Source: Oceanobacillus luteolus (GTDB taxonomy: Bacteria > Bacillota > Bacilli > Bacillales > Amphibacillaceae). Taken from it: 64,000 bases of DNA. A program made the translations under genes and the position numbers. How positions within the stretch are numbered: the stretch's first letter is position 1; each line of letters begins with the position of its first letter. Shown one piece after another: positions 14,870 through 32,886 of the stretch. The stretch covers positions 1 through 64,000 of the forward strand of contig NZ_JAMBON010000017.1 in NCBI RefSeq assembly GCF_023715655.1, in the 5' to 3' direction. The notes below the pieces were generated by a model. It saw only the letters and a list, made by a program, of their open reading frames with translations. It was not told the DNA's origin and made no database searches.

Positions 14870-15304
14870 ATGTCAAAAACAAAAGAGTGGCGAGCATTGG
14901 ATTACTGCGAGGACAATAGAGGGGGTTCACAAGCGATTGTAGAACAGGATGCCGAACAGACGAACATTACAAAACAGCTCTCAGAAGAATGGATCATTAT
15001 TAAGGATTCAGAATGTGTTAATGTTGAAACAACTGATACACAGGTAGCACTATCTTTACAAATCGGTATCGAAGCAGCGCTTGCCATTGTGCTTCGCTTG
15101 GCTATAGCAGATGATAATCAAGTTGAAGATATCTTACAAGACTTCAAACAGATTTCTAAGACAAATCAGAGCAATCGCCAAAAAACAATTGTAGAAAAGT
15201 CGAAGTATGTTGACATTGTCACAGTTGATACAGATATTGCAGTACATCTACAAATACTCATTCAACTTCTTCTTGGTGTCATTGCTACGTTAGACATTCT
15301 GTAA
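14870..15304 (+). CDS. CotX-domain spore coat protein (CotV/CotX-like)
   Basis: A 144-residue coat protein with two CotX domains, at about 48-85 (VNVETTDTQVALSL) and 108-144 (VDIVTVDTDIAVHL). It lacks the Cys-rich head of its neighbour. The ATG follows AAAGGAAAGGGGTG. In B. subtilis the equivalent place is taken by CotV, and these proteins take part in crust assembly. The order here (CotW-like, CotX, CotX-like) supports a homologous cluster. Confidence 0.85.
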   Translation: MSKTKEWRALDYCEDNRGGSQAIVEQDAEQTNITKQLSEEWIIIKDSECVNVETTDTQVALSLQIGIEAALAIVLRLAIADDNQVEDILQDFKQISKTNQSNRQKTIVEKSKYVDIVTVDTDIAVHLQILIQLLLGVIATLDIL

Positions 15305-15403: not shown

Positions 15404-15793
15404 TTGCCAGAATTAACAAATAGGCAGAGAGCTTTATTGGGTTTACTCAATCAGCTGTCACAAAATAACACTTCTCTCATCGATAGAGCAACTACAACTG
15501 GTGTCGAAGTAGACTTTCCGTCCGTAGACTTTAATGTCGACTTCGGAGGGATTTCGATAGATCGTCGACCAACACCGCCAACACCAAATCCACCAACACC
15601 TCCAACCAGTCCAGCATCAATAAGGGAGCTACTATTATCCTTAGTAAACGAGCAAGTAGAAGTTACCGTTCCGTTTGGACCGTTAACTGGAGTGCTACTT
15701 GCCGTCAGAAACGACTATATCGTACTTGTCGAGGCTGACGGATCGCAAGTGCTAATTCGAATAGACAAAATTGAATTAGTGAGTGAATTATAA
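15404..15793 (+). CDS. DUF2642 domain protein, probable spore coat component
   Basis: A 129-residue protein. The first half is polar with a proline-rich linker (about residues 57-69, PTPPTPNPPTPP). The second half, from about 75, is a DUF2642-type small beta-barrel (VEVTVPFGPLTGVLLAV, then DYIVLVEADGSQVLIRI). The start is a TTG after AAGAAAGG. A second gene with the same fold follows 16 bases later, and the CotX genes lie just before it, so a role in the coat or crust is likely. The precise role is not known. Confidence 0.65.
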   Translation: MPELTNRQRALLGLLNQLSQNNTSLIDRATTTGVEVDFPSVDFNVDFGGISIDRRPTPPTPNPPTPPTSPASIRELLLSLVNEQVEVTVPFGPLTGVLLAVRNDYIVLVEADGSQVLIRIDKIELVSEL

Positions 15794-17366: not shown

Positions 17367-18395
17367 TTGTTTAAAGATGCAATAATATTGGTTACTGGAG
17401 GAACAGGCTCATGGGGGCATGAGCTTGTGAAGAAGCTTCTACCATTCGAACCGAAAGAGATTCGAATATTCTCGCGTAATGAATTTGCACAGGTTAATAT
17501 GAAGAGAAAGTATTCGGATAATCCCATTTTAAAATTTGTGATAGGTGATGTTAGAGACTTTGAAGCCGTGAACGAAGCAGCAAGAAATGTTGATTATATT
17601 TTTCATCTTTCGGCGCTAAAACATGTTCCAATCTGTGAAGATCAACCATTGGAGGCTTTGAAGACTAATGTTCACGGAACGGAGAATGTGATTAAAGCGA
17701 GTTTAATTCAAAATGTAAAAAAAGTTATTGATGTATCGACAGATAAGGCAGTGGAACCGATTAATTTCTATGGTATGACAAAAGCGATTGGTGAAAAGCT
17801 TGCCATCCAAGCCAACCAGTTAAGTAACCATACTCGTTTTGTTTGTATTCGTGGAGGTAATGTTATTGGAACAAATGGTAGTGCCATCCCATTTTTCAAA
17901 GATCAAATCATACACCATCATTCTGTACCTCTAACATCAAAAGAAATGACCCGCTTCTTTTTGACCGTCTCTCAAGCGATTGATTTATTATTATACGCAT
18001 CCGAAAAAGCAATTGGCGGAGAAATATTTGTTATGAAGATGAAAGCATGTCGGATTATTGACTTAATTGAGGTTTTGAAGGAGCATTACGCTACTAAGGA
18101 AATTACTATAAAAGAAATTGGCATTCGGCCAGGTGAGAAACTGCATGAAGTATTAGTATCCGAAGCTGAATCACGTAACGCTTATAAATTTGATGAGAAT
18201 TATTACGTCATCTTACCTGATAATGCCTCTGAAGAATTAAGAGAAAGATACGGGAAGCTACCAAAGGTTAGTTTTGCTCGATATCAATCAAATGATAAAT
18301 TGATGCAGTTATACGAAATTGAGCAAATTCTTATGGACGCTGATTTTATTTCAACAAAAGCAATTTTTGATAAGGATGTTGAAAGGAAAGAGTAA
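17367..18395 (+). CDS. capE: CapE/FlaA1-type UDP-GlcNAc 4,6-dehydratase/5-epimerase
   Basis: A 342-residue extended SDR enzyme predicted to turn UDP-GlcNAc into a UDP-6-deoxy-4-keto-hexosamine, the first step to 6-deoxy-L-hexosamines. The N terminus has the NAD(P) motif TGGTGSWG. Further marks are FSRNEFAQ, GDVRDFEAV, HLSALKHVPICE and the active-site region STDKAVEP with YGMTK. It resembles CapE more than the retaining enzyme. The TTG at 17367 gives the usual start MFKD; the frame is open upstream through the ribosome binding site GGAGGGGAG. The CapF partner is encoded at 20.2-21.4 kb on the other strand. Confidence 0.85.
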   Translation: MFKDAIILVTGGTGSWGHELVKKLLPFEPKEIRIFSRNEFAQVNMKRKYSDNPILKFVIGDVRDFEAVNEAARNVDYIFHLSALKHVPICEDQPLEALKTNVHGTENVIKASLIQNVKKVIDVSTDKAVEPINFYGMTKAIGEKLAIQANQLSNHTRFVCIRGGNVIGTNGSAIPFFKDQIIHHHSVPLTSKEMTRFFLTVSQAIDLLLYASEKAIGGEIFVMKMKACRIIDLIEVLKEHYATKEITIKEIGIRPGEKLHEVLVSEAESRNAYKFDENYYVILPDNASEELRERYGKLPKVSFARYQSNDKLMQLYEIEQILMDADFISTKAIFDKDVERKE

Positions 18396-18403
18396 ACGAT
18401 ATA

Positions 18404-18460
18404 AAAAAATGGTCTGACTCAGAATCACGATTATGTGATACTCGGTGTCAGCCATTTTAT
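18404..18460. terminator. terminator between capE and the converging GT operon
   Basis: AAAATGG and CTGAC pair with GTCAG and CCATTTT, with a smaller CAC/GTG hairpin inside, and AT-rich tracts lie on both ends. Confidence 0.65.
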
Positions 18461-18490
18461 TTAGGTGGGAGGCATTAAGAATAAGTTTTT

Positions 18491-19417
18491 TTACAGTATT
18501 GTTTTTATTTGATCGACCAGTTGCTTTGCACGGTGAGCAGCTGAATGGTTATGGTGAATGAAATGGAAACCCTGCTCTATTATTCGTTTTCTTTTCTGCT
18601 CGTTTATTAGGTAGTATTCTGCTTTCTCCGCAAAATTCTCCTCATTTATATCTACAAAATGTTTACCTGGTAATAAGCCGATCTCTTTTAGTTCCGGCAA
18701 GTCAGGGGCCAATAGTAACGTACCGCAAGCTGGAACTTCAAAATATTTAAAAGTCACCACTTGCCGGATAGATCCACATGCAAAAAAGAGTTTTGCCTTG
18801 TTAATTTCCCGTGCATAATTCTCTTTAATTAAGGCCTCTTTCGCTTGTTTTTCCGAAAAATTTTTCCAACCTGGATGAGGGGAAGTTACAAATCTAGGGT
18901 CAGATTTAAAATATTTTAATATCTGTTCTCTTAAAGGGTATATTTTCGGCAGAGAGGTTTCCCCTAACATCATCATGTCAATTGACTTTTCAATGTTGTA
19001 TTTTTTGAATATGGAGATATTAGCAAATTGGGGTAAAAAGAAAACTTTGTCATGTTGTTGGTCTGGGTAATAATTGAAGAAATTATGCTTACATATGACA
19101 AAGAATATTTTGATATGATTAGCTATTATATACCTTTTCCGTTGATTCACAAATCGGTGGGCATCATTCACTACCAGTGCTGTTGGAATGTTGATAGTGG
19201 ACAAACCGTTAACCACTGGGGCAAAATTTTTCCCTACATCATTTAGAATTAAGATGAAATCTGGTTTGTAAGGAATATTGTGTAGTATTTTATTGATATG
19301 TCCAGATTTTCGATAGACCATCAGATTTGTTATATTTGCTAATTCTTTCTCTAGAACGTGGTAATTATTATTTGTAAAATGAGAAGTATCCGTTGCTATA
19401 AGTAATATATTCAGCAT
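18491..19417 (-). CDS. CgeB-like glycosyltransferase
   Basis: A 308-residue GT-B fold glycosyltransferase of the group-1-like type (Glyco_trans_1_2) that includes the spore maturation protein CgeB. The C-terminal half has the pattern REINKAKLFFACGS, then KYFEVPACGTLLLAPDLPEL and GKHFVDINEENFAEK, typical of this group. The N half is a loose Rossmann domain. The ATG follows AAAGGAGA. It is separated from the sulfotransferase gene upstream by a strong palindrome, so it may be expressed partly on its own. A link to spore glycosylation is inferred from CgeB and from the coat cluster nearby. Confidence 0.75.
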   Translation of the reverse strand: MLNILLIATDTSHFTNNNYHVLEKELANITNLMVYRKSGHINKILHNIPYKPDFILILNDVGKNFAPVVNGLSTINIPTALVVNDAHRFVNQRKRYIIANHIKIFFVICKHNFFNYYPDQQHDKVFFLPQFANISIFKKYNIEKSIDMMMLGETSLPKIYPLREQILKYFKSDPRFVTSPHPGWKNFSEKQAKEALIKENYAREINKAKLFFACGSIRQVVTFKYFEVPACGTLLLAPDLPELKEIGLLPGKHFVDINEENFAEKAEYYLINEQKRKRIIEQGFHFIHHNHSAAHRAKQLVDQIKTIL

Positions 19418-19446
19418 CGGTAATATTCTCCTTTCTCAAAAGTAAT

Positions 19447-19474
19447 AAGCGCCTTTTGATATCAAAAGGCGCTT
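19447..19474. terminator. 28-bp perfect palindrome between sulfotransferase and GT genes
   Basis: AAGCGCCTTTTGAT and its exact complement meet without a loop. It lies 12 bases after the sulfotransferase stop on the minus strand and 30 bases before the next gene. The following tract is TTATTACTTTT, so it could end a fraction of transcripts. Confidence 0.65.
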
Positions 19475-19485
19475 GCCTGTTACGT

Positions 19486-20226
19486 TTAAATATCATATCC
19501 TAATCGTTTTAAAGTTTTATAAAACTTTTCATTGATTTGTATTTGTTGCGTTTGACTTAAGACAGATTTCCATGAATTTGACCGACCCTCCCTTACAAAA
19601 GGGATGTTCGGATTAACAAGTGGTGACCTGCCGTTAAGATGCTCATGTTGTTTCTTCTCTAATTCTTTCATATTATCAAAGGATGCCCATTTTACCGCTT
19701 CGTTTATTTCTTTGTTCGTTCTGTTCAAATTTAAGAATTTTATAATCCTTTGTGCTTCTTTAAAAGTGTTTTCTAGGAGATCTTCATATTTAATCAGCAG
19801 AAATCCATTGTTAACGTTTTTCTGATTGTCAAGCCAGCTTTCTATATTCTTATCCCAGAATCCAGGACCGATGCTTCCTTCCATAAAAGCATCAAAGAAA
19901 TCATTAAAGCTCCGTGTATCACCAAAGTATTTCTGAAAATGATGATAATAAGAAATGACGATATCTCTTGGATCTCTTACAAGGTAAATAACTTTCGGAT
20001 AGGTTGGATCATAACCATGATGGCTCCAAACAAGATGTGGGGAGGGAAGTCCGACAATTGGCTCGCTATCTATGTTTTGAATCATCATCCCTTTAGTTGC
20101 CCAATCTAATTTTTTCTTGTACAGTAACGTAGCAACAAGAAATAGTAGAAAATTGTTTCCTGACTTAGGGTAGGCAACTATACAAATATCATCTTCTTGA
20201 AATTTATATTTTCTATCTTTCGACAC
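19486..20226 (-). CDS. PAPS-dependent sulfotransferase
   Basis: A 246-residue sulfotransferase domain protein predicted to move sulfate from PAPS to a hydroxyl or amine of an acceptor. The 5'-phosphosulfate loop is YPKSGNNF at residues 19-26. The 3'-phosphate site is YLVRDPRD with Ser92 (about 81-92). The C-terminal nucleotide motif is REGRSNSWK. There is no signal peptide, so it acts in the cytoplasm on a precursor such as a lipid-linked or nucleotide-linked sugar. GTG 20226 has a 9-base gap to AGAGAGG; the ATG at 20235 abuts that site and is less likely. It lies directly after capF, and a PAPS operon is encoded close by. Confidence 0.88.
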   Translation of the reverse strand: MSKDRKYKFQEDDICIVAYPKSGNNFLLFLVATLLYKKKLDWATKGMMIQNIDSEPIVGLPSPHLVWSHHGYDPTYPKVIYLVRDPRDIVISYYHHFQKYFGDTRSFNDFFDAFMEGSIGPGFWDKNIESWLDNQKNVNNGFLLIKYEDLLENTFKEAQRIIKFLNLNRTNKEINEAVKWASFDNMKELEKKQHEHLNGRSPLVNPNIPFVREGRSNSWKSVLSQTQQIQINEKFYKTLKRLGYDI

Positions 20227-20243
20227 AAATATCATCCTCTCTT

Positions 20244-21374
20244 TTAATCAGTTTTATCCCTATCAACTTGTAAATAAAAAGTATCCGGATTATTCGGGTC
20301 AAAAAGTTCATTAGCCCAAAACAATACAATTATCTCTTCATCCGTTATATTTTCAATCGAATGCGTATAACCTGGAGGAATATCTACAATCTCAATATTT
20401 TGGTCTGACACAGTGTAAGTGATCGTTTTATCATTACCAATTTTCCTTAGTTTAATATTTGCTGTGCCTTTAATAACGCAAAACTTCTCTACCTTTGTAT
20501 GGTGATAGTGATTTCCCCTTATGACACCTTTTTTTGTGGTTGACATAAATATTTGTCCAGCCTGGTGCGATTTGATTAATTCAATCAGACTACCCCTACT
20601 ATCTTTATGTGTAGGCAATCTATAGGAAAAGTCGTTAGGTTCTATATAAGATAAATAGGTTGTATATAAATATTTAGTCAGCAAATCAGACAAATCCGGT
20701 ATAATCAACGATTTCCGTATGTCTCTAATTTTATAAAGCCTATTAGCTAACTCTCCTACGGTTATATGAAAAGTTTGTTTGATATGTTGATAAAAAGTCT
20801 TTCCCATCTTTTTCTCATAAAGGCAATCTATGAAACTATTCACGACATCATCAATATATACAAGCTCCAACATTTTATCTGCATCATGGATATCTATTTC
20901 CCTATGATGTGCAATTTCATGGCAGAACGTAGCAACAACTGAATTGTAATGCGGTTTACACCACTTACCGAAGACACCTGGCAATTGATAAATTCTTACG
21001 TCTGCCCCAGTCTCTATGCTGAATTTTTTTAGAACTTCTTCAGCTTCTTTTTTACTTTGACCATAAGGGTTATTCATCTCTGCTTGCCTTGAAGATGAAA
21101 AAACTATCAGTGGTGTTTTATTCTGATCCTTCAAATATTTAACAATGGTCTCTGTAAGTCCTTTATTAACTTTAGTAAACTCTTCATTTTCCTTAGGTCT
21201 GTTAACTCCTGCAAGGTGATAGACTATATCAGCATTATTTAAATACTGATATAACTGCGATACGTCATCATTTCGATGATACTGATTGACAATGATCTTT
21301 TTGTCTTGTTGCAGTACATCTATTAAATTTTTACCAATAAATCCTCCTGCCCCGGTTACTAATACGTTAATCAT
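20244..21374 (-). CDS. capF: CapF-type UDP-sugar reductase with C-terminal cupin
   Basis: A bifunctional 376-residue enzyme of the CapF family. The N-terminal SDR domain (TGAGGFIG near residue 10, with YGQSKKEAEEV as the Tyr-x-x-x-Lys motif) would reduce the 4-keto product of CapE. The C-terminal third, from about 250, is a cupin with GNHYHHTKVEKF, which supplies metal-binding histidines, and PPGYTHSIEN. In Staphylococcus the cupin carries out an epimerisation before reduction, giving UDP-6-deoxy-L-talosamine. ATG 21374 follows AGGAGAG at good spacing. The CapG epimerase needed to reach UDP-L-FucNAc is not in the window. Confidence 0.88.
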   Translation of the reverse strand: MINVLVTGAGGFIGKNLIDVLQQDKKIIVNQYHRNDDVSQLYQYLNNADIVYHLAGVNRPKENEEFTKVNKGLTETIVKYLKDQNKTPLIVFSSSRQAEMNNPYGQSKKEAEEVLKKFSIETGADVRIYQLPGVFGKWCKPHYNSVVATFCHEIAHHREIDIHDADKMLELVYIDDVVNSFIDCLYEKKMGKTFYQHIKQTFHITVGELANRLYKIRDIRKSLIIPDLSDLLTKYLYTTYLSYIEPNDFSYRLPTHKDSRGSLIELIKSHQAGQIFMSTTKKGVIRGNHYHHTKVEKFCVIKGTANIKLRKIGNDKTITYTVSDQNIEIVDIPPGYTHSIENITDEEIIVLFWANELFDPNNPDTFYLQVDRDKTD

Positions 21375-21411
21375 GTTATACTCTCCTATCTGACTAAAGC
21401 TCAATTTTTGC

Positions 21412-21457
21412 ACTATTAGTTATTCTTCTACATATTATGTTTTATATCAGAGGATGT
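21412..21457. promoter_or_regulatory. divergent sigma-K-like promoter pair
   Basis: Between capF and the GT61 gene lies ACATATTATGT (21430-21440), which gives a CATA-type -10 on both strands. On the plus strand AC at 21412-21413 is 17 bases before CATATTATG. On the minus strand AC (read at 21457-21456) is 16 bases before CATAATATG. Each differs from the sigma-K consensus AC-N16/17-CATA-N3-TA only in the last base. The short, loose consensus makes chance matches common. Confidence 0.35.
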
Positions 21458-21510
21458 GTAATAATAGGGCGGAATTGGGGCAACCAATTTAAAAGGAGGT
21501 AAGGCAATTT

Positions 21511-22611
21511 ATGACGGATTTATTTGTTCATACAAAAGATTGGATGAAAGAAACTACTAAGAATAAGGATTTAGATGATGTTTATAAAGAGTTTTTTAAA
21601 GACGAGGTAGTGACATTTAGAGTTCCAAAAGGAGATACACCAGAATGGGTGGATTGGGTAATACCTCCAAAGTTCGGAGTTGAACATAGGTTTCCTGAAT
21701 CTTATGTTTCCATGATAAAGAACGGAAGTATTTGGATGTGTGATAAAGGTGAAGGAATGGTATATACAATGACTCCTGACCAAAAGTGTTTGCAAGATAT
21801 GGTTTTTCATTTATATCATCCATATTTTGAAAGGGTGGCTCACAAGCATATACCTGTACCAACACTTTACAATGGCAACTTGGGTGTTTTATCCTGGGCC
21901 GGGCACACGAATTACTGGCATTGGTTACATGATATACTAGGACGCTATCATTTATTGCAGCTAAGTGGATTTCACATTGACAAATATGTTCTACCGGCTA
22001 TGACTAAGCCATTTCAACGAGAAACTGTAAGAATGCTTGGAATTCCTGACGAAATGATTCTACAGCTTAAAGCTGGACAGCACTTGAAAGCTGAAAGTTT
22101 AATTCTACCCTCGGTTCCCTTTAATGCAGGAACATGTGTAAAATGGACAATTGAATTTCTTCGGAAATCTTTTCTTAAGACACCCCCAAAAAATGAATTA
22201 AGTAACTTTGAAAGAATTTATGTCAGCAGGGAAGATGCTTCATGGCGGAAGGTTGCTAATGAATCGAAGCTTATGAAACTATTAACGATTAAAGGCTTTA
22301 AAAAAATCGTCTTAAGTTCTCTGACTGTACAGGAACAAATTGATATTTTTTCCTCAGCCAAAGTGATCATTAGTCCAAATGGTGCAGGCCTAGCAAATAT
22401 AATGTTTTGTCAGCCTGGAACGAAAATTATTCAGCTTTTTACTTCTACTTCTGATGAGTTCGTAAAAATTGGACAATACTTAGGTTTAGATTACCACCTA
22501 CTAAAATGCAGGACTGCTAATCCCGGTTCTAAATCCCATGAAGTCCTCAAAAACCTTGTTGTTGATGTTAACAAATTAAGGACGATGTTAAATAATGAGG
22601 GGATTAGCTAG
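21511..22611 (+). CDS. glycosyltransferase family 61 protein
   Basis: A 366-residue protein of the GT61 (DUF563) family. Marks are NYWHWLHDILGRYHLL near residue 132, RIYVSREDASWRKVANE near 232, and VIISPNGAGLANIMFCQPG near 287. It has no signal peptide or membrane segment. The ATG follows AAAAGGAGGTAAGG. It is read away from capF and probably adds a sugar to the same glycan as the CapE/CapF product. Acceptor and donor cannot be read from the sequence. Confidence 0.82.
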   Translation: MTDLFVHTKDWMKETTKNKDLDDVYKEFFKDEVVTFRVPKGDTPEWVDWVIPPKFGVEHRFPESYVSMIKNGSIWMCDKGEGMVYTMTPDQKCLQDMVFHLYHPYFERVAHKHIPVPTLYNGNLGVLSWAGHTNYWHWLHDILGRYHLLQLSGFHIDKYVLPAMTKPFQRETVRMLGIPDEMILQLKAGQHLKAESLILPSVPFNAGTCVKWTIEFLRKSFLKTPPKNELSNFERIYVSREDASWRKVANESKLMKLLTIKGFKKIVLSSLTVQEQIDIFSSAKVIISPNGAGLANIMFCQPGTKIIQLFTSTSDEFVKIGQYLGLDYHLLKCRTANPGSKSHEVLKNLVVDVNKLRTMLNNEGIS

Positions 22612-22810
22612 TCAAATTGTCTTTTTACAATCCTCTTTTGGAAACCCTCCTATTGATAAAGACCCCGGCTTGATTGTTTTTGTTTATTAATAACGAATGC
22701 TCTGCAGGGAATATCACCACATTATGTTTATTATTTTGGAAGCAAGATTCTATCTAAAGAAATATCTTCTAATTCCTAACCTGTGTCAATGCGCAAGTAC
22801 AAAAGCCGAG

Positions 22811-22838
22811 ACAAAGTCAATAGTGGTATCATACTTTA
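22811..22838 (+). promoter_or_regulatory. sigma-K-like promoter upstream of the PAPS operon
   Basis: AC at 22811-22812, a 17-base spacer and CATACTTTA at 22830-22838 fit the sigma-K consensus AC-N16/17-CATA-N3-TA. It would start transcription near 22846, leaving a leader of about 170 bases before cysD. A weak vegetative pair, TTGAAT-N17-TATTGG, overlaps just downstream (from about 22841). If the sigma-K reading is right, PAPS would be made in the mother cell late in sporulation. The rest of the 400-base gap shows no T-box, S-box or gene. Confidence 0.4.
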
Positions 22839-23013
22839 TCTTGAATCAATTGTTTTTCTATGCTATTGGAACTGATCTGTAGTACAACATGGGGAATTTG
22901 TTTTTTGTTTAGGGAAGAAATCAAACAGGGATTAAACGAAGCAGCATATTAACCATAGTTTTAAAGAATCCATTGATTATACTTTTGATAAATTTACGCA
23001 AGGAGGAAATGAA

Positions 23014-23913
23014 ATGTCCAAATTGACCCACCTTGATCAACTAGAAGCGGAAGCCATTTATATCATCCGTGAAGTAGCAGCAGAATGTGAAAATCCAGTT
23101 ATGCTTTATTCGATTGGTAAAGACAGCTCTGTGATGCTCCATCTGGCAATTAAAGCATTTTATCCTGAGAAACCGCCATTTCCTTTTATGCATGTTAATA
23201 CAACATGGAAATTTAAAGAAATGATTGAGTTTAGAGATCAGGTTGCAAAGAAACACGGAATAACCATGATTGAGCAGATTAATGAGGAAGGTATAAAACA
23301 AGGTATTAATCCATTTGATTATGGTGCCTCTTATACTGATATTATGAAAACGCAAGCGTTAAAACAAGGTCTAGATAAATATGGGTTTACGGCTGCATTT
23401 GGAGGGGCTCGTCGTGATGAAGAGAAGTCACGAGCAAAAGAGCGAATCTTTTCTTTCCGTAATAAGAATCATGCGTGGGATCCTAAAAATCAAAGACCCG
23501 AAATGTGGAAGCTTTATAACACATCTATAAATAAAGGGGAGAGTATTCGTGTATTTCCGCTTTCTAATTGGACGGAGAAAGATATCTGGCAGTATATAAA
23601 GCGGGAAAATATTGAGATTGTCCCACTCTATTTCGCAAAAGAACGTCCGGTAGTGGAACGCGAAGGTAACATCATAATGGTAGATGATGATCGTATGAAA
23701 TTGGCCTCAGGTGAAAAGGTGGAGATGAAAAAAATACGATTCCGTACACTTGGCTGTTATCCTCTCACTGGTGGTGTAGAGTCTGAGGCCGATACGCTTG
23801 ATGAAATTATTGAGGAAACACTAAGTGCGATTTCATCTGAACGCACAAGTCGGGTGATTGATCACGAAGCTAAGGGCAGTATGGAACGTCGGAAACGAGA
23901 GGGGTATTTCTAA
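23014..23913 (+). CDS. cysD: sulfate adenylyltransferase subunit 2 (CysD)
   Basis: The catalytic small subunit of the CysDN-type ATP sulfurylase, 299 residues, which makes adenosine phosphosulfate from ATP and sulfate. The PP-loop pyrophosphatase motif SIGKDSS is at residues 33-39. Further marks are [16 protein letters not shown] and [15 protein letters not shown]. Length is normal. The ATG follows AAGGAGG. Bacillus usually uses the unrelated single-chain Sat enzyme for assimilation, so this proteobacterial-type enzyme is notable. It is followed after one base by the CysN-CysC fusion gene. Confidence 0.95.
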
Positions 23914-23914
23914 C

Positions 23915-25741
23915 ATGAAAAGTCTATTGAAATTTATTACTTGCGGCAGTGTAGATGATGGTAAAACAACATTAATTGGACATATGCTTTTTGAGGCAAA
24001 ACTGATATTTGCAGACCAGGCAAAAAGCTTGGAGCTTGACAGCAAAGCCGGTAGTCGTGAAGGGCGGATTGATTATTCTTTTCTTCTTGATGGGCTGATA
24101 GCTGAACGGGAACAGGGTATTACGATTGATGTAGCGTACCGTTATTTTACTACAGAGAAACGGTCTTTTATCGTTGCAGATACCCCTGGACATGAGGAAT
24201 ACACCCGTAATATGGCAGTGGGTGCGTCTTTTGCAGATTTAGCGGTTTTATTAGTCGATGCGTCAAAAGGAGTTATTACTCAGACAAAACGCCATGCCCG
24301 AATTTGTGCACTAATGGGAATAAAGCATATTGTATTGGCTGTCAATAAAATGGACTTAGTAGATTATGACCAAGAGCGTTATGAGCATATCAAACAAGAT
24401 TTTGAAGAGTTGGTATCTAATCTTGATCTTGAAAGTGTCCGTGTTATCCCTGTATCGGCTACTGAAGGAGATAATATTATCAAAAAGTCGCAGAACACGC
24501 TTTGGTATAAAGAAAAAGCCCTTTTACCGTATTTAGAATCTATTGAAGTAAAACAAAAAGTGAAACGGGATAAATTTTTAATGCCAGTCCAGCGTGTAAG
24601 CCGTCCAAATCATACATTTCGTGGTTTCCAAGGTCAAGTGGAAGCTGGTACGATCCACGTTGGAGATGAAATCTTCGTTCTTCCAAGCCATGAAAAAGCA
24701 AAAGTGAAAAGCATCCTAGTATCTGGGAAAGAAGAGAACTCTGCTGTATACGGTCAACCAGTTACTATCCAATTAGATCATGAAGTTGATGTTTCCCGCG
24801 GTGATGTACTTACAATAAGTAAAGAATTAAAAGTGGCTGATATGCTGACAGCAACTGTTCTTTGGATGGATGATAAGGAACTAGTTGAAGGTCAAAATTA
24901 CCTTATTAAAGTTGGAACAAAAACACTGCCGTGTATGGTAGTGACCATAAAAAATCAAATCAATATTAATAATGGTCTAAAAACACCTGTTGACAAAGGG
25001 ATTAAGAATGAAATGATTGAATGTGAGATAGCTCTATCCGAAAGCATAGTGTTCGACCGTTTTGAAAATAATGAAGCAATGGGTGGTCTAATTCTTATTG
25101 ACCGTGTATCGAATATGACATCTGCATGTGGAATTATTGAACAGTCGGTAAATCGTTCCAATAATGTCATTTGGCAAGAAACAGATGTTACGAGAGAAAT
25201 ACGCGCAACCCAAAAGGGCCAAATTCCATTAACATTATGGTTTACTGGTTTATCTGGGTCTGGTAAGTCTACACTTGCAAATGAAGTAGAGAAACGTCTT
25301 GTGGCTAGAGGATTTCATACGATGTTATTGGACGGAGATAATTTACGTCATGGTTTAAATAAAGATCTTGGATTTAAAGAAACGGATCGTACAGAAAATG
25401 TACGACGTATGGCGGAGGTCTCCAAGTTAATTAATGAAGCTGGATTAATATCAATGGTATCCCTTATTTCACCTTTTAAAAAAGACCGTGATGATGCTCG
25501 TGAAATACTAGGAGATTCATATATTGAAATCTATGTAAATACGCCACTCAAAGAGTGTGAAAAACGTGATCCGAAAGGTCTGTATAAAAAAGCACGTTCG
25601 GGTGAAATTTCAAAATTCACAGGGATATCGAGCGTATATGAGCCACCGGAAAAACCACATATCCAAATTGATACAAGTAAATATACTTTAGAAGAAGCTA
25701 CTGATCTTGTAATGAAACAAGTATTGGAATATTTAAGTTAA
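23915..25741 (+). CDS. cysNC: CysN-CysC fusion: ATP sulfurylase GTPase subunit and APS kinase
   Basis: A 608-residue two-enzyme protein like NodQ. Residues 1 to about 420 are the EF-Tu-like GTPase subunit of ATP sulfurylase, with GSVDDGKTT at 11-19, the switch residues REQGITIDVAYRYF, DTPGHEEYT and NKMDL. From about 440 follows an APS kinase with its own P-loop GLSGSGKST (about 446-454), DGDNLRHGLN and a PFKKDRDDAR segment. Together with CysD it turns sulfate into PAPS. The ATG at 23915 is one base after the cysD stop with GAGGGG before it; the longer upstream frame only overlaps cysD. No reductase follows in the operon. Confidence 0.95.
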   Translation: MKSLLKFITCGSVDDGKTTLIGHMLFEAKLIFADQAKSLELDSKAGSREGRIDYSFLLDGLIAEREQGITIDVAYRYFTTEKRSFIVADTPGHEEYTRNMAVGASFADLAVLLVDASKGVITQTKRHARICALMGIKHIVLAVNKMDLVDYDQERYEHIKQDFEELVSNLDLESVRVIPVSATEGDNIIKKSQNTLWYKEKALLPYLESIEVKQKVKRDKFLMPVQRVSRPNHTFRGFQGQVEAGTIHVGDEIFVLPSHEKAKVKSILVSGKEENSAVYGQPVTIQLDHEVDVSRGDVLTISKELKVADMLTATVLWMDDKELVEGQNYLIKVGTKTLPCMVVTIKNQININNGLKTPVDKGIKNEMIECEIALSESIVFDRFENNEAMGGLILIDRVSNMTSACGIIEQSVNRSNNVIWQETDVTREIRATQKGQIPLTLWFTGLSGSGKSTLANEVEKRLVARGFHTMLLDGDNLRHGLNKDLGFKETDRTENVRRMAEVSKLINEAGLISMVSLISPFKKDRDDAREILGDSYIEIYVNTPLKECEKRDPKGLYKKARSGEISKFTGISSVYEPPEKPHIQIDTSKYTLEEATDLVMKQVLEYLS

Positions 25742-25799
25742 TGGTATGTTAACTATTAAAACGAAAGTGGATGCTGTGGTTGGGAGGAGCAGTATGTAG

Positions 25800-27578
25800 A
25801 TGACATGGGAAATGATATTTGTTGCTGTTATGATTATCGTAATGTTTTGCGCGCTGTTATTTGAAGTTTTAAGGCCGGATATTATTATGTTTTCTGTCGT
25901 TATTGTATTTCTCCTCACAGGTTTACTAACAACCGAAGAGGCGTTGAAAGGATTTTCCAATGAAGGAATGCTTACGGTGGCGCTGTTGTTCATTGTAGCA
26001 GGTGCTGTTCAGAAACATGGAGTAATTGACCGGTTTGTGTATAAATGGTTGGCTTCAGGAAAAAATATAAAAGGTTCCTTGTTGAAGTTTTATATATCAA
26101 TTGCAACATCTTCAGCTTTTCTAAACAACACGCCAATTGTAGTTACGTTTACTCCTTTATTAAAGAAATGGGCGGAAGATAATAATCTAGCCCCCTCTAA
26201 ATTCTTAATCCCATTATCTTATATAACTATATTAAGTGGAACGATCACTTTGTTGGGCTCCTCAACTAATATGGTTGTTCATGGATTGCTGCTTGACCTT
26301 GGTTTGGAAGGATTTTCACTGTTTCAATTGGCTGTCGTTGGGCTCCCTATTACAATTGTTGGATTTATCTTCTTGTTTACCATTGGAATCAAATTGTTGC
26401 CAAACCATAAGAGTTCCGACAACCAAGTACAGGTTGAATCAAGAGAATATCTAGCAGAAATGACGGTTGAATCAAATTTTAAGTATATTGATTGTTCCGT
26501 GAGGGAAGCAGGGTTAAGAGAATTAAAAGGTCTGTATCTAATACAAATCAACCGTGGGGATGAAACAATTTCCCCGGTCAAATCTACAACCATTATTCGA
26601 GAAGGCGATCGTTTAATTTTTACAGGACTTATTTCTACAATTGCTGATTTAGAGAAAGTCAGTGGACTAAAGCTAGAAACAGGTTCTGAATTTCAATTAG
26701 ATGATTTAAGAAAAAGTGATATTCATTTATTTGAAGTAGTTATATCCCATGAATCCTCTCTTTTAACAAAATCTATTAAACAATCAAAGTTCAGAACAAA
26801 ATTTGATGCAGGTATCTTAGCGGTTCATAGGGATAATGAACGTATAAAGAGCAAAATTGGAGATATTATCTTGAAAGCAGGAGATAGGTTATTACTATTA
26901 TCTGGTTCTGAATTTACGGAAAAATATGAAAGGTGTAACGAATTTTATGTTATTTCCTCTCTTGATACCCCATCTAGGTTAGAGGAAAATAGAAATAAGG
27001 GTTGGTTTGCGGTTAGTGTGCTTATTTTGATGATTGTATTGGTAACCACTGGATTTTTAACTATGTTTAAAGCGATGGCCCTAGCAACACTATTATTGAT
27101 GCTATTTAGAGTAATTAATATTGAAGAGGCGAAAAAATATATTCAGTTTAATATCTTATTGTTAATTGCCAGTGCATTTGGAATTGGTACTGTTATGACA
27201 AAGACGGGATTGGTTGGAGTCATAGCGGATATAATACTTTCTTTAGGCGAGCCTCTTGGACTCATTGCTATTTTATTCTCCATTTATATATTAACGAACA
27301 TTCTAACAGAGGTGATTACAAATAGTGCCGTAGCCGTGTTGATGCTCCCGCTTGGGATTGAAATTGCAAATTCTTTAGGTGTATCTTATGTAGGATTTGC
27401 AGTGATAATCCTCATAGCTGCGTCGGCAAGCTTTGTTACCCCAATTGGATATCAAACTAATTTGATTGTATATGGACCAGGGGCTTATAAATTTAAAGAC
27501 TTTATTAAAATAGGAATACCACTTAGTCTATTAATTATGCTTATAACAGTTACTATTGTTTCATTAATTTGGTTTTAA
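25800..27578 (+). CDS. SLC13-family permease with RCK_C domains, likely sulfate uptake
   Basis: A 592-residue membrane protein. Two sets of helices, about 1-195 and 400-592, hold the anion-transporter repeats with SSTNMVVHG and the ITNSAVAVLMLPLG and TPIGYQTNLIVYGPG motifs. A soluble middle part, about 205-390, holds two TrkA-C (RCK_C) domains, which often bind nucleotides or gate transport. This build is shared with sulfate permeases of the SLC13 type. Position between the PAPS synthesis genes and cysQ makes sulfate the likely substrate. The ATG is 10 bases after GGGAGGAG. It is probably in one operon with cysD and cysNC, 58 bases downstream. Confidence 0.85.
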   Translation: MTWEMIFVAVMIIVMFCALLFEVLRPDIIMFSVVIVFLLTGLLTTEEALKGFSNEGMLTVALLFIVAGAVQKHGVIDRFVYKWLASGKNIKGSLLKFYISIATSSAFLNNTPIVVTFTPLLKKWAEDNNLAPSKFLIPLSYITILSGTITLLGSSTNMVVHGLLLDLGLEGFSLFQLAVVGLPITIVGFIFLFTIGIKLLPNHKSSDNQVQVESREYLAEMTVESNFKYIDCSVREAGLRELKGLYLIQINRGDETISPVKSTTIIREGDRLIFTGLISTIADLEKVSGLKLETGSEFQLDDLRKSDIHLFEVVISHESSLLTKSIKQSKFRTKFDAGILAVHRDNERIKSKIGDIILKAGDRLLLLSGSEFTEKYERCNEFYVISSLDTPSRLEENRNKGWFAVSVLILMIVLVTTGFLTMFKAMALATLLLMLFRVINIEEAKKYIQFNILLLIASAFGIGTVMTKTGLVGVIADIILSLGEPLGLIAILFSIYILTNILTEVITNSAVAVLMLPLGIEIANSLGVSYVGFAVIILIAASASFVTPIGYQTNLIVYGPGAYKFKDFIKIGIPLSLLIMLITVTIVSLIWF

Positions 27579-27598
27579 TAACAAAAGGTGGTATAGGA

Positions 27599-28396
27599 AT
27601 GGATCATTTTCTAAGTGATTTAACGAAAATTGTACTGGAAGCTGGAAAAGAAATATTAGATGTGTATGGTGAAGATTTTGATTTCGAATATAAAGAGGAT
27701 GATTCCCCGCTTACCCTGGCAGATCAACGAGCACATCGTGTTATTGTGCAAGGCTTACAAAATTTAGATGAAACTATACCAATATTAAGTGAAGAGGGAA
27801 GATCAATTCCTTATATGGAAAGGAAAAGTTGGGATAAGTTTTGGTTGATTGACCCACTAGATGGCACGAAGGAATTCATTAAGAAGAACGGAGAATTTAC
27901 CGTGAATATTGCGTGTATAGAAGGGAGTTATCCATCATTAGGGATTATTTACGCCCCAGCTCTCGATGTGCTCTATTTAGGATATAACAAGGAAGCGTAT
28001 AAATTGGAAAAGGTATCAGGTGTTGATTTTGAAAATGATTATGATTTATTGAAAATGAGTGTTCGTTTGCCGGATAAAGAAAATAGTGTTTTAAGGGTAA
28101 TAGCAAGTCGTTCCCACATGTCAAAAGAAACTGAGACATTTATTAATGACCTTAAGGAAAAACATGATGAGATTGAAGTCATCTCATTAGGAAGCTCGCT
28201 TAAATTTTGTTTAGTAGCAGAAGGAAATGCTGATTATTATCCGAGGCTTACTCCAAGTATGGAATGGGATACCGCAGCGGGGCAAGCGATTGTTGAAGCG
28301 GCTGGTGGGAAGGTGATTAATTATGAGGAAGGAAAACGACTGTATTACAACCGGGAAGACTTACGGAATGGTTGGATGTTGGCAGAACTACCATAA
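27599..28396 (+). CDS. cysQ: 3'(2'),5'-bisphosphate nucleotidase CysQ
   Basis: An inositol-monophosphatase-fold phosphatase, 265 residues, that converts 3'-phosphoadenosine 5'-phosphate (PAP) to AMP. PAP is the by-product of every sulfotransferase reaction and inhibits it. Metal-binding motifs are SEEGRSIPY, DPLDGTKEF and the C-terminal WDTAAGQAIVEAAGG. ATG 27599 follows AAAGGTGG; the open frame upstream runs into the permease gene. Its place at the end of the PAPS operon completes the cycle of sulfate uptake, activation, transfer and PAP clearance. Confidence 0.93.
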   Translation: MDHFLSDLTKIVLEAGKEILDVYGEDFDFEYKEDDSPLTLADQRAHRVIVQGLQNLDETIPILSEEGRSIPYMERKSWDKFWLIDPLDGTKEFIKKNGEFTVNIACIEGSYPSLGIIYAPALDVLYLGYNKEAYKLEKVSGVDFENDYDLLKMSVRLPDKENSVLRVIASRSHMSKETETFINDLKEKHDEIEVISLGSSLKFCLVAEGNADYYPRLTPSMEWDTAAGQAIVEAAGGKVINYEEGKRLYYNREDLRNGWMLAELP

Positions 28397-28442
28397 GTTA
28401 ATAGAATTTTGTGCTAAATAAATTAAATATATAAAGAGAAAA

Positions 28443-28473
28443 TAAACAGTCGGGAGAACGCCCTGACTGTTTA
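28443..28473. terminator. bidirectional terminator of the PAPS operon
   Basis: TAAACAGTCGGG pairs with CCCTGACTGTTTA around a 6-base loop. T-rich sequence follows on the plus strand (TATATTTT), and it separates cysQ from a converging glycosyltransferase gene. Confidence 0.8.
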
Positions 28474-28480
28474 TATTTTG

Positions 28481-29746
28481 CTATAGATACTTTAAAAAAC
28501 CATCCCAATGTTCCAAGTTCTTTCGAGTAGTGCTTTCTTTATGTTCTCTTATGTTGTAAACGGTAAAGTTTTTGTATTGAAACTTATAGGACTTGATTAA
28601 TTCGTTTAATACACTGACATCTTCATACAGACGGCCGTCTTGATAAGTTATGATAGGAAAGCCGCCAATTTTTTTTAATGAAGATGTGCGGTATATCCTA
28701 GGCCCAAGAGGGAAATGGTATGATAGTAAATCTTGTCTGTTTTTGACACTACGCCCCATAGAGACTTTTTTGAAGAGTATACTATTGTTTGTTTGTTTCC
28801 ACCTTCGTAGATTTCCATACAACACTGCAGTGTTATCCTGTAAGTCTGCTATCTGTTTTTTTATGACGGAAACGGCATCAGGGTCCAACCAGTCATCGGC
28901 ATCGAGTTCTAAAATAAAATTGGTATGAACATGTGGAAGTAAATAATTTAAGGCCCTTGCCTTTCCTTCGTTTTGCTTGTGGAATATTTCAATTGTTGAT
29001 ATCGACTTCCATTTATTGATCTTATTTAAGGATTTGTCAGATGAACCATCATCTATAATATAGATCCTATCTGGTTTTTGATTTTGCAGCAGACAGGAAT
29101 TTATTGCGTTCTCCACATATTTCTCCATATTATAATTGGCTATAAAGATGGCCAGACTTGGATGAGTCGTTTGAGTTTTGTTCGTTTGATATTTTTCCAT
29201 GAAACGTTGTTTTTCCAGCCAGTTTCTGTTCAGCTGTTCTCTACCACGCATGACTAGTTTTTCTTTAATTTTGATACGAGAATCGTCTACTGTTGAAAGC
29301 CAGGCAGGGAAAATTGCCTCCGAAAAAGGAAGCTGCTGTTCTGGCGGAAAAGGATTTTCTTTCATGAATTCTGTCCGAATTAATAATGGGTAATGAACAG
29401 AGGTTTGTTTTTGGTGATAGGTATGAGCTAGGACCATTTCGGATGCCTTCAACTCGAACTCTTCGGTAATTGCCATTGGAGAAAGATATTCTGCATTCTG
29501 TAGGATGAGAACATACTCGCTTTGTATCTTGGAGATTAAATCATCTACTGCTTTGCTCAATTCCCCAGTTTTAAATTTATGGAATTCAACGTTAAAAAGT
29601 TGGTGTTGGATATAGAGATGAGATTTATCTTCATGTAATACGATAACAGAATGTATTTTGGAAGAGATGATGTTTAAAGAGTGGAGCGTTTTCTGTATTG
29701 TTGATTGTTCAGTGTAATTAACGAGAAAGACAGTGATTTCCTTCAT
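28481..29746 (-). CDS. family 2 glycosyltransferase with N-terminal extra domain
   Basis: A 421-residue protein. From about residue 195 it is a GT-A, family 2 glycosyltransferase: LAIFIANYNMEKYVENAI, then IDDGSSDKS, then the metal-binding DADDWLDPD and a later EDVSVL. The first 190 residues look like a second, degenerate GT2-like domain (EITVFLVNYTEQSTIQKTL) without a DxD motif. ATG 29746 follows GGGGGG; an upstream in-frame start at 29827 lacks a ribosome binding site. It faces the PAPS operon and probably belongs to the same glycan pathway. Confidence 0.8.
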   Translation of the reverse strand: MKEITVFLVNYTEQSTIQKTLHSLNIISSKIHSVIVLHEDKSHLYIQHQLFNVEFHKFKTGELSKAVDDLISKIQSEYVLILQNAEYLSPMAITEEFELKASEMVLAHTYHQKQTSVHYPLLIRTEFMKENPFPPEQQLPFSEAIFPAWLSTVDDSRIKIKEKLVMRGREQLNRNWLEKQRFMEKYQTNKTQTTHPSLAIFIANYNMEKYVENAINSCLLQNQKPDRIYIIDDGSSDKSLNKINKWKSISTIEIFHKQNEGKARALNYLLPHVHTNFILELDADDWLDPDAVSVIKKQIADLQDNTAVLYGNLRRWKQTNNSILFKKVSMGRSVKNRQDLLSYHFPLGPRIYRTSSLKKIGGFPIITYQDGRLYEDVSVLNELIKSYKFQYKNFTVYNIREHKESTTRKNLEHWDGFLKYL

Positions 29747-30755: not shown

Positions 30756-31676
30756 TCATTCTCCTCCTAGGATTTTAGCCTTTGCATCGCCATGATAATA
30801 ATGCTCATAAAATTCTAAAGTGCCAAGAGGGCCAATGGTGACCTCTTTATTCTCGTCATTCGCTACGTTAAGCATCCAATGGAGTTGTTCCTCCTTAGAC
30901 ATGTTGACAGTTGGAATACATAGTAGGTGGTCCGCAATATAGAGATGGTCCTCCGGTAAGCTATAAACAAGAGACAACTTTTCATATTCCTCAGGAGATA
31001 TGTCCAGTTTGATATATTTTTCATTTTTATTTTGTGCATTTTGTTCGTGAATAAAGTCCCCGTCTTTTAAATAAAGGACCCTGTCCGCATATAAATCAAG
31101 ATTCGAGAGAAGGTGTGATGCGATGAATAACAATTTACCTTCTTCCTTCATTTCAGCAAGCCTTCTGGAAATGAGAGCGACATTTGCCACATCAAGGCCG
31201 TTCATTACTTCATCCATCAGCATGACAGGTGTGTCGGCACAGGCGAGCATGGCAAAACAGAGACGTTGACGCATTCCAAGGGAATAGGTTTTTACTTTCT
31301 TTTTCACATACCCTTCCATTTGGAGATACTTATAAATATCCTCCACCTTTTTATCTGAATTCCACATGTCTGCATATAGTTTCATATGCTCCACACCAGA
31401 TAGTTCCTCAAATAGATCAGCTTGGTCTGGAAGAGTTGCAAGCTGATTATGGATAGCGATTTCTTGCTTCTCCGTTTTATACTGCAGTTTTTCACGGAAC
31501 GTCACGTTTCCTTTATTCGGTTTTAAAAAGTTGGCAATAACATTAAAAAGTGTCGTCTTTCCAGTACCATTTGGAGCAACTAGTCCAATGATCTCCCCAG
31601 CCGTAGCAGTGAGGGAGAGATTTTCTAATACAGTTTTATCCTTATATCTGACCGTGATACTTTCCAGCTTAAGCAT
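30756..31676 (-). CDS. ABC-2 type exporter ATP-binding protein
   Basis: A 306-residue ATPase. It has Walker A APNGTGKTT near residues 34-42, the signature YSLGMRQR, Walker B VMLMDE and a switch His in IASHLL. A C-terminal extension of about 95 residues after the ATPase core is specific to this protein. The ATG follows AGGAGGG. It works with the two permeases encoded upstream in the same operon. Family members export peptides or lipids, or confer resistance to them. No peptide gene is seen next to it. Confidence 0.88.
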   Translation of the reverse strand: MLKLESITVRYKDKTVLENLSLTATAGEIIGLVAPNGTGKTTLFNVIANFLKPNKGNVTFREKLQYKTEKQEIAIHNQLATLPDQADLFEELSGVEHMKLYADMWNSDKKVEDIYKYLQMEGYVKKKVKTYSLGMRQRLCFAMLACADTPVMLMDEVMNGLDVANVALISRRLAEMKEEGKLLFIASHLLSNLDLYADRVLYLKDGDFIHEQNAQNKNEKYIKLDISPEEYEKLSLVYSLPEDHLYIADHLLCIPTVNMSKEEQLHWMLNVANDENKEVTIGPLGTLEFYEHYYHGDAKAKILGGE

Positions 31677-31707
31677 GAATTTCCCTCCTATTGCTCATTC
31701 TTCACCG

Positions 31708-32868
31708 TTAAAACGCTTTAGTTAGCGGATTGTTTTTTGGTACTTGAAGATACGTATATTTATTCCAAGCATAAATAATTACAATTAAAACGAGACTCAC
31801 TATACCTAAAGTTATCATCGCATTCCAAAAATCAATGGCAGGATTATTTAATTCGGCAGCAAGCTCTCCCGAAAGTACTTTGTTTATATCAATATATTTG
31901 ATGGGATGCAGAAAACGAGCTTCAAATCCAGCAGCTCTTACGATATCTGGAAGGATAAAAATTCCTAGTCCGATTAAAACATTGGCAAAAGCATGCCGGA
32001 ACATCATATTCATTAAGACGGAAAGAAGCAGAATAAGAATCGTTACGACCCCAAATCCAATAAATAGATAAGCTAAGTATTGGATCGTTGAAATAGCGAC
32101 ATATGTATCATTCTGGTACATTAAAACAGGGAATTGAAAGCCTCCACCTTCTACATTTCGTGATAAGTATGAATACCCGATAGCTATTCCGAGAATTAGA
32201 AAAGTAAAAATAAATAAGCTGTGTACGAAAACCTTACTTGTAATCTTTTTTATGAAAGTTATGGGTACACCTTTCAAGACGGAATGATGCTTCCTTTCGT
32301 AGACGAGTATTTCATTGCCGCTAATCAGCAAAATAATGAGGAATAAGAGACCTGACATCATAGCTAGTCCATTTGTAATATAATGATTCGTCATGAAGGA
32401 ATCAGATTCAATAGGCAAATCATTGTCTCTGATATAGTGCAACAAGGCATCTTCCTTTAAGATATCCTCTCTCGGGACAATGAGATGATCAGGTATTCCG
32501 CTATTTCCCAGATCATGGACTTCCAGCCTAAGCTGATTAATTTCCAAACCATCTTCTACATACTGTTCCGGGTCACTGCCTCCTCCAATATTCCAAACTT
32601 GCATGCCTAGCAGGGATTGGATTTCTGTATGACGCTCATAAACTTCTGCTACTTCTGGTATAGCATGGCGTCCACTATCCAAATGATAGAATACAGCGTA
32701 TGACGTTTGATATTCATTTCGTTTCTGATCCTGAAGGCTCATCTGTTCCTCTTGACTATAATAGATGAAATATAATAGAAAAAAGAGAAGCAGAAATATA
32801 GCGAGCAACCAGCTTTTCCGATTGATATACACCATTTTCCATTCAAATCTAGTAAATTTCCAAAACAT
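31708..32868 (-). CDS. ABC exporter permease (ABC-2 type)
   Basis: A 386-residue membrane protein. It has one helix at about 17-36, then a large extracellular part of roughly 120 residues, then a bundle of five helices from about 165 and a last one near 350. This build fits ABC-2 permeases. The ATG follows GAAAGGA. It lies between a similar permease gene and the ATPase gene, so the two permeases probably form a heterodimer. Confidence 0.8.
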   Translation of the reverse strand: MFWKFTRFEWKMVYINRKSWLLAIFLLLFFLLYFIYYSQEEQMSLQDQKRNEYQTSYAVFYHLDSGRHAIPEVAEVYERHTEIQSLLGMQVWNIGGGSDPEQYVEDGLEINQLRLEVHDLGNSGIPDHLIVPREDILKEDALLHYIRDNDLPIESDSFMTNHYITNGLAMMSGLLFLIILLISGNEILVYERKHHSVLKGVPITFIKKITSKVFVHSLFIFTFLILGIAIGYSYLSRNVEGGGFQFPVLMYQNDTYVAISTIQYLAYLFIGFGVVTILILLLSVLMNMMFRHAFANVLIGLGIFILPDIVRAAGFEARFLHPIKYIDINKVLSGELAAELNNPAIDFWNAMITLGIVSLVLIVIIYAWNKYTYLQVPKNNPLTKAF

Positions 32869-32886
32869 AATATTATTCCTTTCTAA

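Follow-up and report, generated by a model that had tools for sequence, protein, structure and literature searches.

A CapE/CapF glycan cluster with linked PAPS supply in Oceanobacillus luteolus: a predicted sulfation system for the spore surface

What would a spore-forming bacterium with no detectable sulfate reduction do with 3'-phosphoadenosine 5'-phosphosulfate (PAPS)? The question is raised by a gene cluster of Oceanobacillus luteolus, a salt-loving Bacillus relative (NCBI RefSeq GCF_023715655.1), whose 4.0 Mb draft genome (G000 in the survey) consists of 206 contigs and is estimated to be 99.94% complete. The window, meaning the whole 64 kb stretch analysed here (contig NZ_JAMBON010000017.1), carries at 17367-29746 genes for a CapE/CapF-type sugar pathway, three glycosyltransferases, a sulfotransferase and the making of PAPS. 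The cluster probably works in the mother cell, late in sporulation, to sulfate the spore surface, and its product is most likely a sulfated 6-deoxy-amino-sugar glycan. The enzymatic activities, the sugar, the acceptor and the location are predictions made from sequence. A sulfated spore surface glycan had been suggested in a preliminary description of the locus, and we infer the same from the recurrence of the gene set with its PAPS linkage, from sigma-K-type promoter sites, and from the lack of a detectable CysH or sulfite reductase. The charge and adhesion of spore surfaces are governed by the glycans of the crust, whose chemistry is mostly unknown.

The cluster, its conservation and its linked PAPS supply

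The genes of the cluster and the crust protein genes upstream are given below; several starts (capE, capF, cysN-cysC, cysQ and GT2) were chosen within longer open reading frames (ORFs).

14291-14851 and 14870-15304, plus strand: two cotX/cotV-type spore crust protein genes (Coat_X, E 6e-38 and 7e-36)
15404-15793, plus strand: DUF2642-like small protein with a Pro/Thr-rich linker (DUF2642, E 3.2e-4, just below the Pfam cut-off)
17367-18395, plus strand: capE-like UDP-GlcNAc 4,6-dehydratase/5-epimerase (longest ORF from 17346; Polysacc_synt_2, E 7.8e-96)
18491-19417, minus strand: CgeB-like glycosyltransferase (Glyco_trans_1_2, PF13524, E 1.9e-17)
19486-20235, minus strand: predicted PAPS-dependent cytoplasmic sulfotransferase (Sulfotransfer_1, E 1.5e-38)
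20244-21374, minus strand: capF-like (CapF/WbcJ-like) reductase (longest ORF from 21413; Epimerase and Polysacc_synt_C, E 1.6e-48)
21511-22611, plus strand: GT61 glycosyltransferase (Glyco_transf_61, E 7.4e-31)
23014-23913, plus strand: cysD, ATP sulfurylase small subunit (NF009214, above cut-off)
23918-25741, plus strand: cysN-cysC fusion, ATP sulfurylase large subunit and adenosine 5'-phosphosulfate (APS) kinase (longest ORF from 23858; NF004035, above cut-off)
25800-27578, plus strand: SLC13/DASS-type transporter with TrkA_C domains, presumed sulfate importer (CitMHS, Na_sulph_symp, TrkA_C)
27599-28396, plus strand: cysQ, phosphatase of 3'-phosphoadenosine 5'-phosphate (PAP) (longest ORF from 27569; TIGR01331, above cut-off)
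28481-29746, minus strand: GT2 glycosyltransferase (longest ORF from 29827; Glycos_transf_2, E 1.1e-24)

The ten genes that had been named between 17367 and 29746 are all intact at those places and have Pfam or NCBIfam support. The distance to the coat genes, previously put at about 1.3 kb, needs correction: the cotX-type genes end at 15304, and some 1.6 kb separate capE from the end of the DUF2642-like gene at 15793. The sulfotransferase scores 133 bits against a Sulfotransfer_1 cut-off of 22, and no other protein of the window genome matches Sulfotransfer_1 or Sulfotransfer_3. Its PAPS motifs had been described as intact, and in fact PKSGN, VRDxRD and RxG-x4-WK are invariant in all 17 aligned sulfotransferases, which come from 16 genomes. 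We take PKSG to be the 5'-phosphosulfate loop, RDxRD...S the 3'-phosphate motif and RxG-x4-WK the C-terminal motif.

CapE and CapF had been read as making a 6-deoxy-L-hexosamine donor. Both family assignments hold, but the exact sugar stays tentative because both proteins score under NCBIfam equivalog cut-offs: the capE-like protein is below those of the PseB and FnlA models, and the capF-like protein, whose start is placed at an ATG after an AGGAGAG site, reaches 414 bits against 500 for NF047837. No CapG-type epimerase was found among the ten cluster proteins, the rest of the genome not having been searched for one, and the donor would thus be the CapF product, not FucNAc, unless an epimerase is encoded elsewhere. 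The sulfate specificity of the SLC13-type transporter is likewise presumed.

The window sulfotransferase and GT61 proteins were used as queries in a survey of 159 genomes from 46 genera of the family. The sulfotransferase is present in 14 genomes from six genera, with a lowest identity of 63%, and GT61 is present in the same 14, together with a frame interrupted by two stops in G051. The window genome falls in one genus with two of the relatives, G077 and G073. For the 13 relatives carrying the sulfotransferase, stretches of 19.9 kb were then compared. The gene set sought in relatives was found: capE, the cgeB-like gene, the sulfotransferase gene, capF and GT61 occur all together in 12 of the 13, and in 12 the sulfotransferase gene stands between capF and cgeB in a same-strand run (the cgeB-like gene itself has an orthologue in 12). 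These five genes travel as a unit. GT2 is near full length in eight relatives, and a ninth copy (L023) is truncated where its stretch ends. Co-travel with cotX, proposed as a check, was borne out in part: the DUF2642-like gene is linked in nine of the 13 relatives, Coat_X-type genes in only two. In G051 capE and capF are kept, and neither the sulfotransferase gene nor cgeB was found between them.

In an order-wide search the sulfotransferase was detected in three of 397 genomes, the window genome included. G269 belongs to another family, and its locus (L064, 3940-13598) has three sulfotransferase genes alternating with two CgeB-like genes, followed by GT61, capF, capE, sat and cysC. This is a larger version of the window system, in which sat and cysC come directly after capE, beside the three sulfotransferases.

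The PAPS genes show a comparable linkage. An intact sat-SLC13-cysC cassette is linked to the glycan genes in ten of the 13 relatives, with cysQ in six of these ten, contrary to the possibility raised earlier that sulfotransferase and PAPS genes are never linked in relatives. The cassettes of the ten relatives adjoin capE and encode a Sat-type ATP sulfurylase. The ATP sulfurylase of the window (CysDN) is of a different kind, and its CysD-CysNC cassette sits between GT61 and GT2. Remnants of a Sat cassette were looked for in the window between 15500 and 17400 and none was found. In a tree of 24 transporter sequences, that of the window groups with the three other CysDNC-cassette transporters sampled (support 96/93), and its nearest neighbour is that of G082 (support 100/99), where the CysDNC cassette lies beside EpsG-, flippase- and Sulfotransfer_3-type genes (L053). 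From its kind and position, the window cassette looks like a swap that restored PAPS linkage. In G046 the cassette at the sulfotransferase locus (L022, 12036-17707) is decaying, with sat in pieces, an ISL3 transposase and an APS kinase fragment. The same genome carries a second, intact cassette beside a Sulfotransfer_3 gene on contig C10 (L051). Linkage of sulfotransferase and PAPS genes apparently arose on more than one occasion; this would be difficult to account for if the PAPS did not serve the sulfotransferase. Among the matches listed, 33 genomes have a Sulfotransfer_3 match, and in 29 of them an APS kinase lies no more than 20 kb from such a match; the 55 rows of that list were reduced by three second pieces of genes already counted.

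Sigma-K-type promoter sites and two alternative readings

Two sigma-K-type sites are predicted between capF and GT61 in the window, and both are found at all loci counted.

21432-21457, minus strand: sigma-K-type site for the capF-sulfotransferase-cgeB run, AC-N16-CATAATAT (13 of 13 loci)
21412-21438, plus strand: sigma-K-type site for GT61, AC-N17-CATATTAT, with its -10 element overlapping the divergent one (13 of 13 loci)

The capF-GT61 intergenic region contains a conserved block around TTCTACATATTATG, which reads in both directions as AC, 16 or 17 bases, and CATANNNT. The consensus letters for sigma-K were taken from general background. A strict CATANNNTA pattern gave almost no promoter matches and was replaced by CATANNNT with AC 15-17 bases ahead. 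Predicted sites were counted in the window and 12 relatives; L034 (G081), which has a site before capE and the sulfotransferase gene and none before capF or GT61, was left out. All 13 loci have a site ahead of capF and another ahead of GT61, and 12 have one ahead of capE, which makes 38 of the 39 upstream regions; in L027 and L033 the GT61 site lies within the longest ORF or straddles its beginning, and the true start there is probably later. Since the pattern had been loosened after the alignment was seen, permutation and other-upstream controls were run. Within a narrower region, the motif occurs in 37 of 39 glycan-gene upstreams and in 8 of 174 other ORF upstreams of the same loci, and it ranks first of 192 permutations (37, the next 22, the median 2). 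The lengths and spacing of sigma-K promoter elements, and a sigma-K promoter of the sps coat polysaccharide operon, are given in passages of PMC517825.

The window genome has a sigma-K gene above cut-off; no control genome, B. subtilis included, reached it, perhaps because the B. subtilis gene is, we presume, interrupted. G051 also has this kind of site before capF and capE, G269 before capF and a CgeB-like gene, G156 before capF and a sulfotransferase gene, and G098 and G103 before two genes each (heading two divergent runs).

Several observations weigh against a sporulation-specific spore system. As the loci are related and not independent, a Fisher value for 37 of 39 against 8 of 174 overstates the significance. 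In the window, capE has no site and CATTTATTA stands in its place. The Sat cassette lacks a sigma-K-type site in all ten relatives, and two sites before the window cysD have no counterpart there. The motif is found before one of ten DUF2642 genes (inside the ORF) and, among cotX-type genes, before one of five and none in the window; for GT2, promoters were rejected, with two matches in nine and no shared place. No site was found at four genes tested in the coat-linked locus L072, nor at GT61 or capE in L064 of G269. GerE boxes are not needed at every sigma-K promoter; with a strict form of the known pattern, no GerE-type box conserved near the three sites was found. Two of the 13 relatives, G047 and G081, have no linked PAPS cassette, and G081 also has no cgeB-like gene and a capE match of only 43%. 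Finally, seven of the 14 genomes with the sulfotransferase keep a CysI-length sulfite reductase, and the other seven do not, among the matches listed.

Some of these points would suit a sulfated glycan on the surface of vegetative cells (capsule, exopolysaccharide or wall polymer) unrelated to spores. The site-free Sat cassettes are one of them, and a cluster of vegetative type with a similar cassette does exist, namely that of G082 at L053. An ABC-2-type transporter (ABC_tran and ABC2_membrane_2) is also encoded downstream of the window cluster at 30756-34119. However, these ABC genes have no near relative in the stretches of the 13 relatives, where the best matches are ATPases at 25-26%. No flippase or polymerase was recognised among the ten cluster proteins by Pfam, and no enzyme among them appears membrane-bound: the nine proteins besides the transporter have no 19-residue window above 1.6 on the Kyte-Doolittle scale, whereas the transporter has 13 such segments. 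The sigma-K-type sites are kept at three transcription units; six genes examined in L053, L054, L060 and L065 showed none. Together with the linkage to Coat_X- and DUF2642-like genes, these data make a vegetative glycan unlikely.

A second alternative, somewhat less likely still, is that the sulfotransferase directly modifies a coat protein (e.g., on tyrosine) or a small spore metabolite, while the glycan genes serve a separate modification. By sequence comparison, the solved structures closest to it are those of SULT-type enzymes (best E 3e-23), whose names refer to steroid, bile salt, phenol and amine substrates; this would fit such a role. The gene arrangement argues for a glycan substrate instead, since the sulfotransferase gene is held between capF and cgeB on the same strand in 12 of the 13 relatives, and is missing together with cgeB in G051 while capF and capE remain; in L064, sulfotransferase genes alternate with CgeB-like genes.

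Other uses of PAPS

To what else could the PAPS be put? A search of the window genome draft with the sulfite reductase model NIR_SIR gave no match, while the B. subtilis control matched. No CysH was found in the draft either, the PAPS_reduct-family matches being CysD and DndC only. CysH was sought genome-wide in the window genome alone among the 14; none was recognised in the linked cassettes in the stretches of the 13 relatives. The cysN-cysC gene is the single APS kinase match of the window genome among the matches listed. Because neither CysH nor sulfite reductase was found, no use of PAPS other than sulfation is evident there; this favours a cassette dedicated to sulfation, although a miss in a draft of 206 contigs does not prove absence.

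A PAPS_reduct frame of 527 aa on contig C141 was considered as CysH and rejected, as it is DndC beside DndB. This DndB-DndC pair (L002, 269-2964), of the DNA phosphorothioation type, has both members above NCBIfam cut-offs. A second ATP sulfurylase of 571 aa is encoded on contig C140 (L005, 8347-10062) with no APS kinase nearby; it lies near genes that by eye resemble sodium:solute symporters and has no Pfam match beyond about residue 400.

The neighbourhoods of APS kinase genes were also surveyed across the family. The survey covers 113 strong matches listed, excludes weak or fragment matches (including a partial match in G029) and NIR_SIR matches outside frames of 527-676 aa, and does not count sulfotransferases found by the Sulfotransfer_1 or Sulfotransfer_2 models only. 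Of these 113, 29 have a Sulfotransfer_3-type match and 53 a CysI-length sulfite reductase at a distance of up to 20 kb; none is near both and 31 are near neither. Of 16 inspected from the last group, nine are beside CysH and four beside a Sulfotransfer_2 gene; the other three are a broken cassette in G044, an intact cassette in G051, where the sulfotransferase locus has decayed, and a cassette beside NeuB and flagellin genes in G101. The CysH neighbours were checked by Pfam in L066 and L052, and ComA and ComB in L066.

These results bear on a third alternative, that the PAPS genes form an ordinary sulfate assimilation or spore sulfolactate operon and neighbour the glycan cluster by chance. Such operons do occur in the family: CysH-Sat-CysC genes lie beside ComA and ComB genes in G009 (L066), and similar SLC13-type transporters are found in some assimilatory operons, e.g., in G057 near its sulfite reductase. 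The yitB, yitA and yisZ genes of B. subtilis are presumably of the same CysH, Sat and CysC types. Given that neither CysH nor sulfite reductase could be detected in the window genome, in contrast to L066, that no APS kinase listed is near both kinds of partner, and that five relatives (G057, G073, G077, G087 and G150) have, among the matches listed, a separate APS kinase near a sulfite reductase besides the one linked to the sulfotransferase, an assimilatory or sulfolactate role in the window genome is set aside as very improbable.

A putative sulfated spore glycan among known systems

For a sulfated spore-surface glycan, the following pathway may be proposed. Sigma-K would turn on capE, the divergent GT61 gene and the capF-sulfotransferase-cgeB run late in sporulation. 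CapE and CapF would convert UDP-GlcNAc to a UDP-6-deoxy-L-amino-sugar, from which the soluble CgeB-like, GT61 and, usually, GT2 enzymes would build a short glycan in the mother-cell cytoplasm. The sulfotransferase would add sulfate from PAPS to this glycan. In the cassette, the SLC13-type transporter would import sulfate, CysDN-CysC (Sat-CysC in relatives) would make PAPS and CysQ would remove PAP. The spore coat is assembled in the mother-cell cytoplasm, and no exporter would be needed because the forming spore is directly accessible from there. The acceptor would most likely be a crust or coat protein, for instance CotX/V or the linked DUF2642-like protein; proteins of the CotX/V type are named as glycosylation candidates in B. 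subtilis in parts of PMC7439481.

The closest parallel is the glycosylation of the B. subtilis spore crust (sps, cge, yfn and spsM), to which CgeB presumably belongs. Both systems have soluble enzymes, a CgeB-type transferase, CotX/V neighbours and mother-cell expression under sigma-K, which is predicted here. The window cluster differs in its sugars (CapE/CapF), in GT61, and in a sulfotransferase with a linked PAPS supply. In PMC7439481, "sulf" appears only in the phenol-sulfuric assay. What would be new here is a sulfation branch linked to the glycosylation of a spore surface.

Rhizobial NodP, NodQ and NodH sulfate Nod factors, and there too a PAPS-making gene set is linked to a sulfotransferase, apart from assimilatory copies where these are present. 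The window cluster differs from the Nod system in having spore-type promoter sites and, in relatives, Sat in place of CysDN; its GT2 falls far short of the NodC model, scoring 24.9 bits against a cut-off of 550. Among the open-access papers listed, no description of a sulfated endospore glycan was found, most subscription papers being outside this scope. The nearest described case there is wps-1 of Actinoplanes missouriensis, for which a sulfated polysaccharide of the sporangium has been predicted but not verified; its predicted sulfotransferases lie in a glycan cluster that is needed for the spore-bearing structure, according to PMC13390465. That system differs in being from an actinomycete, in its predicted Wzx/Wzy-type exported polymer and in its sulfotransferase domains. 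"PAPS" is absent from the main text of that paper, and its authors describe bacterial sulfated polysaccharides as otherwise cyanobacterial.

If the proposed pathway is correct, sulfation under sporulation-type promoters would give a permanently anionic endospore surface, it would explain why PAPS synthesis is kept by a bacterium without detectable sulfate reduction, and endospores of Bacillota would join the few bacterial structures known to bear sulfated glycans. A wider scenario is more tentative, and the odds lie slightly against it. Halophilic Bacillaceae may possess a sulfated, proteoglycan-like crust, with interchangeable Sat and CysDN cassettes placed beside varied sulfotransferases, and with non-reducers importing sulfate for decoration only. 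Spore-type systems (Sulfotransfer_1 with CapE/CapF/GT61, or Sulfotransfer_2 beside cotX in G156) and envelope-type systems might then have evolved in parallel.

Similar cassettes are paired with other sulfotransferases in related genomes. A CysDNC cassette in G101 (L058, 938-13064) lies between sugar genes of the NeuB/formyltransferase type and a flagellin gene; no sulfotransferase was identified at L058, and a sulfated flagellar glycan is possible. G098 and G103 (L073 and L074) carry Sat-CysC beside capE-like, WecB-like (by eye), Sulfotransfer_2 and GT2-like genes. In G156 (L081, 509-12122), Coat_X-type, DUF2642-like, sat-SLC13-cysC, capF, WecB-type epimerase and Sulfotransfer_2 genes are found together.

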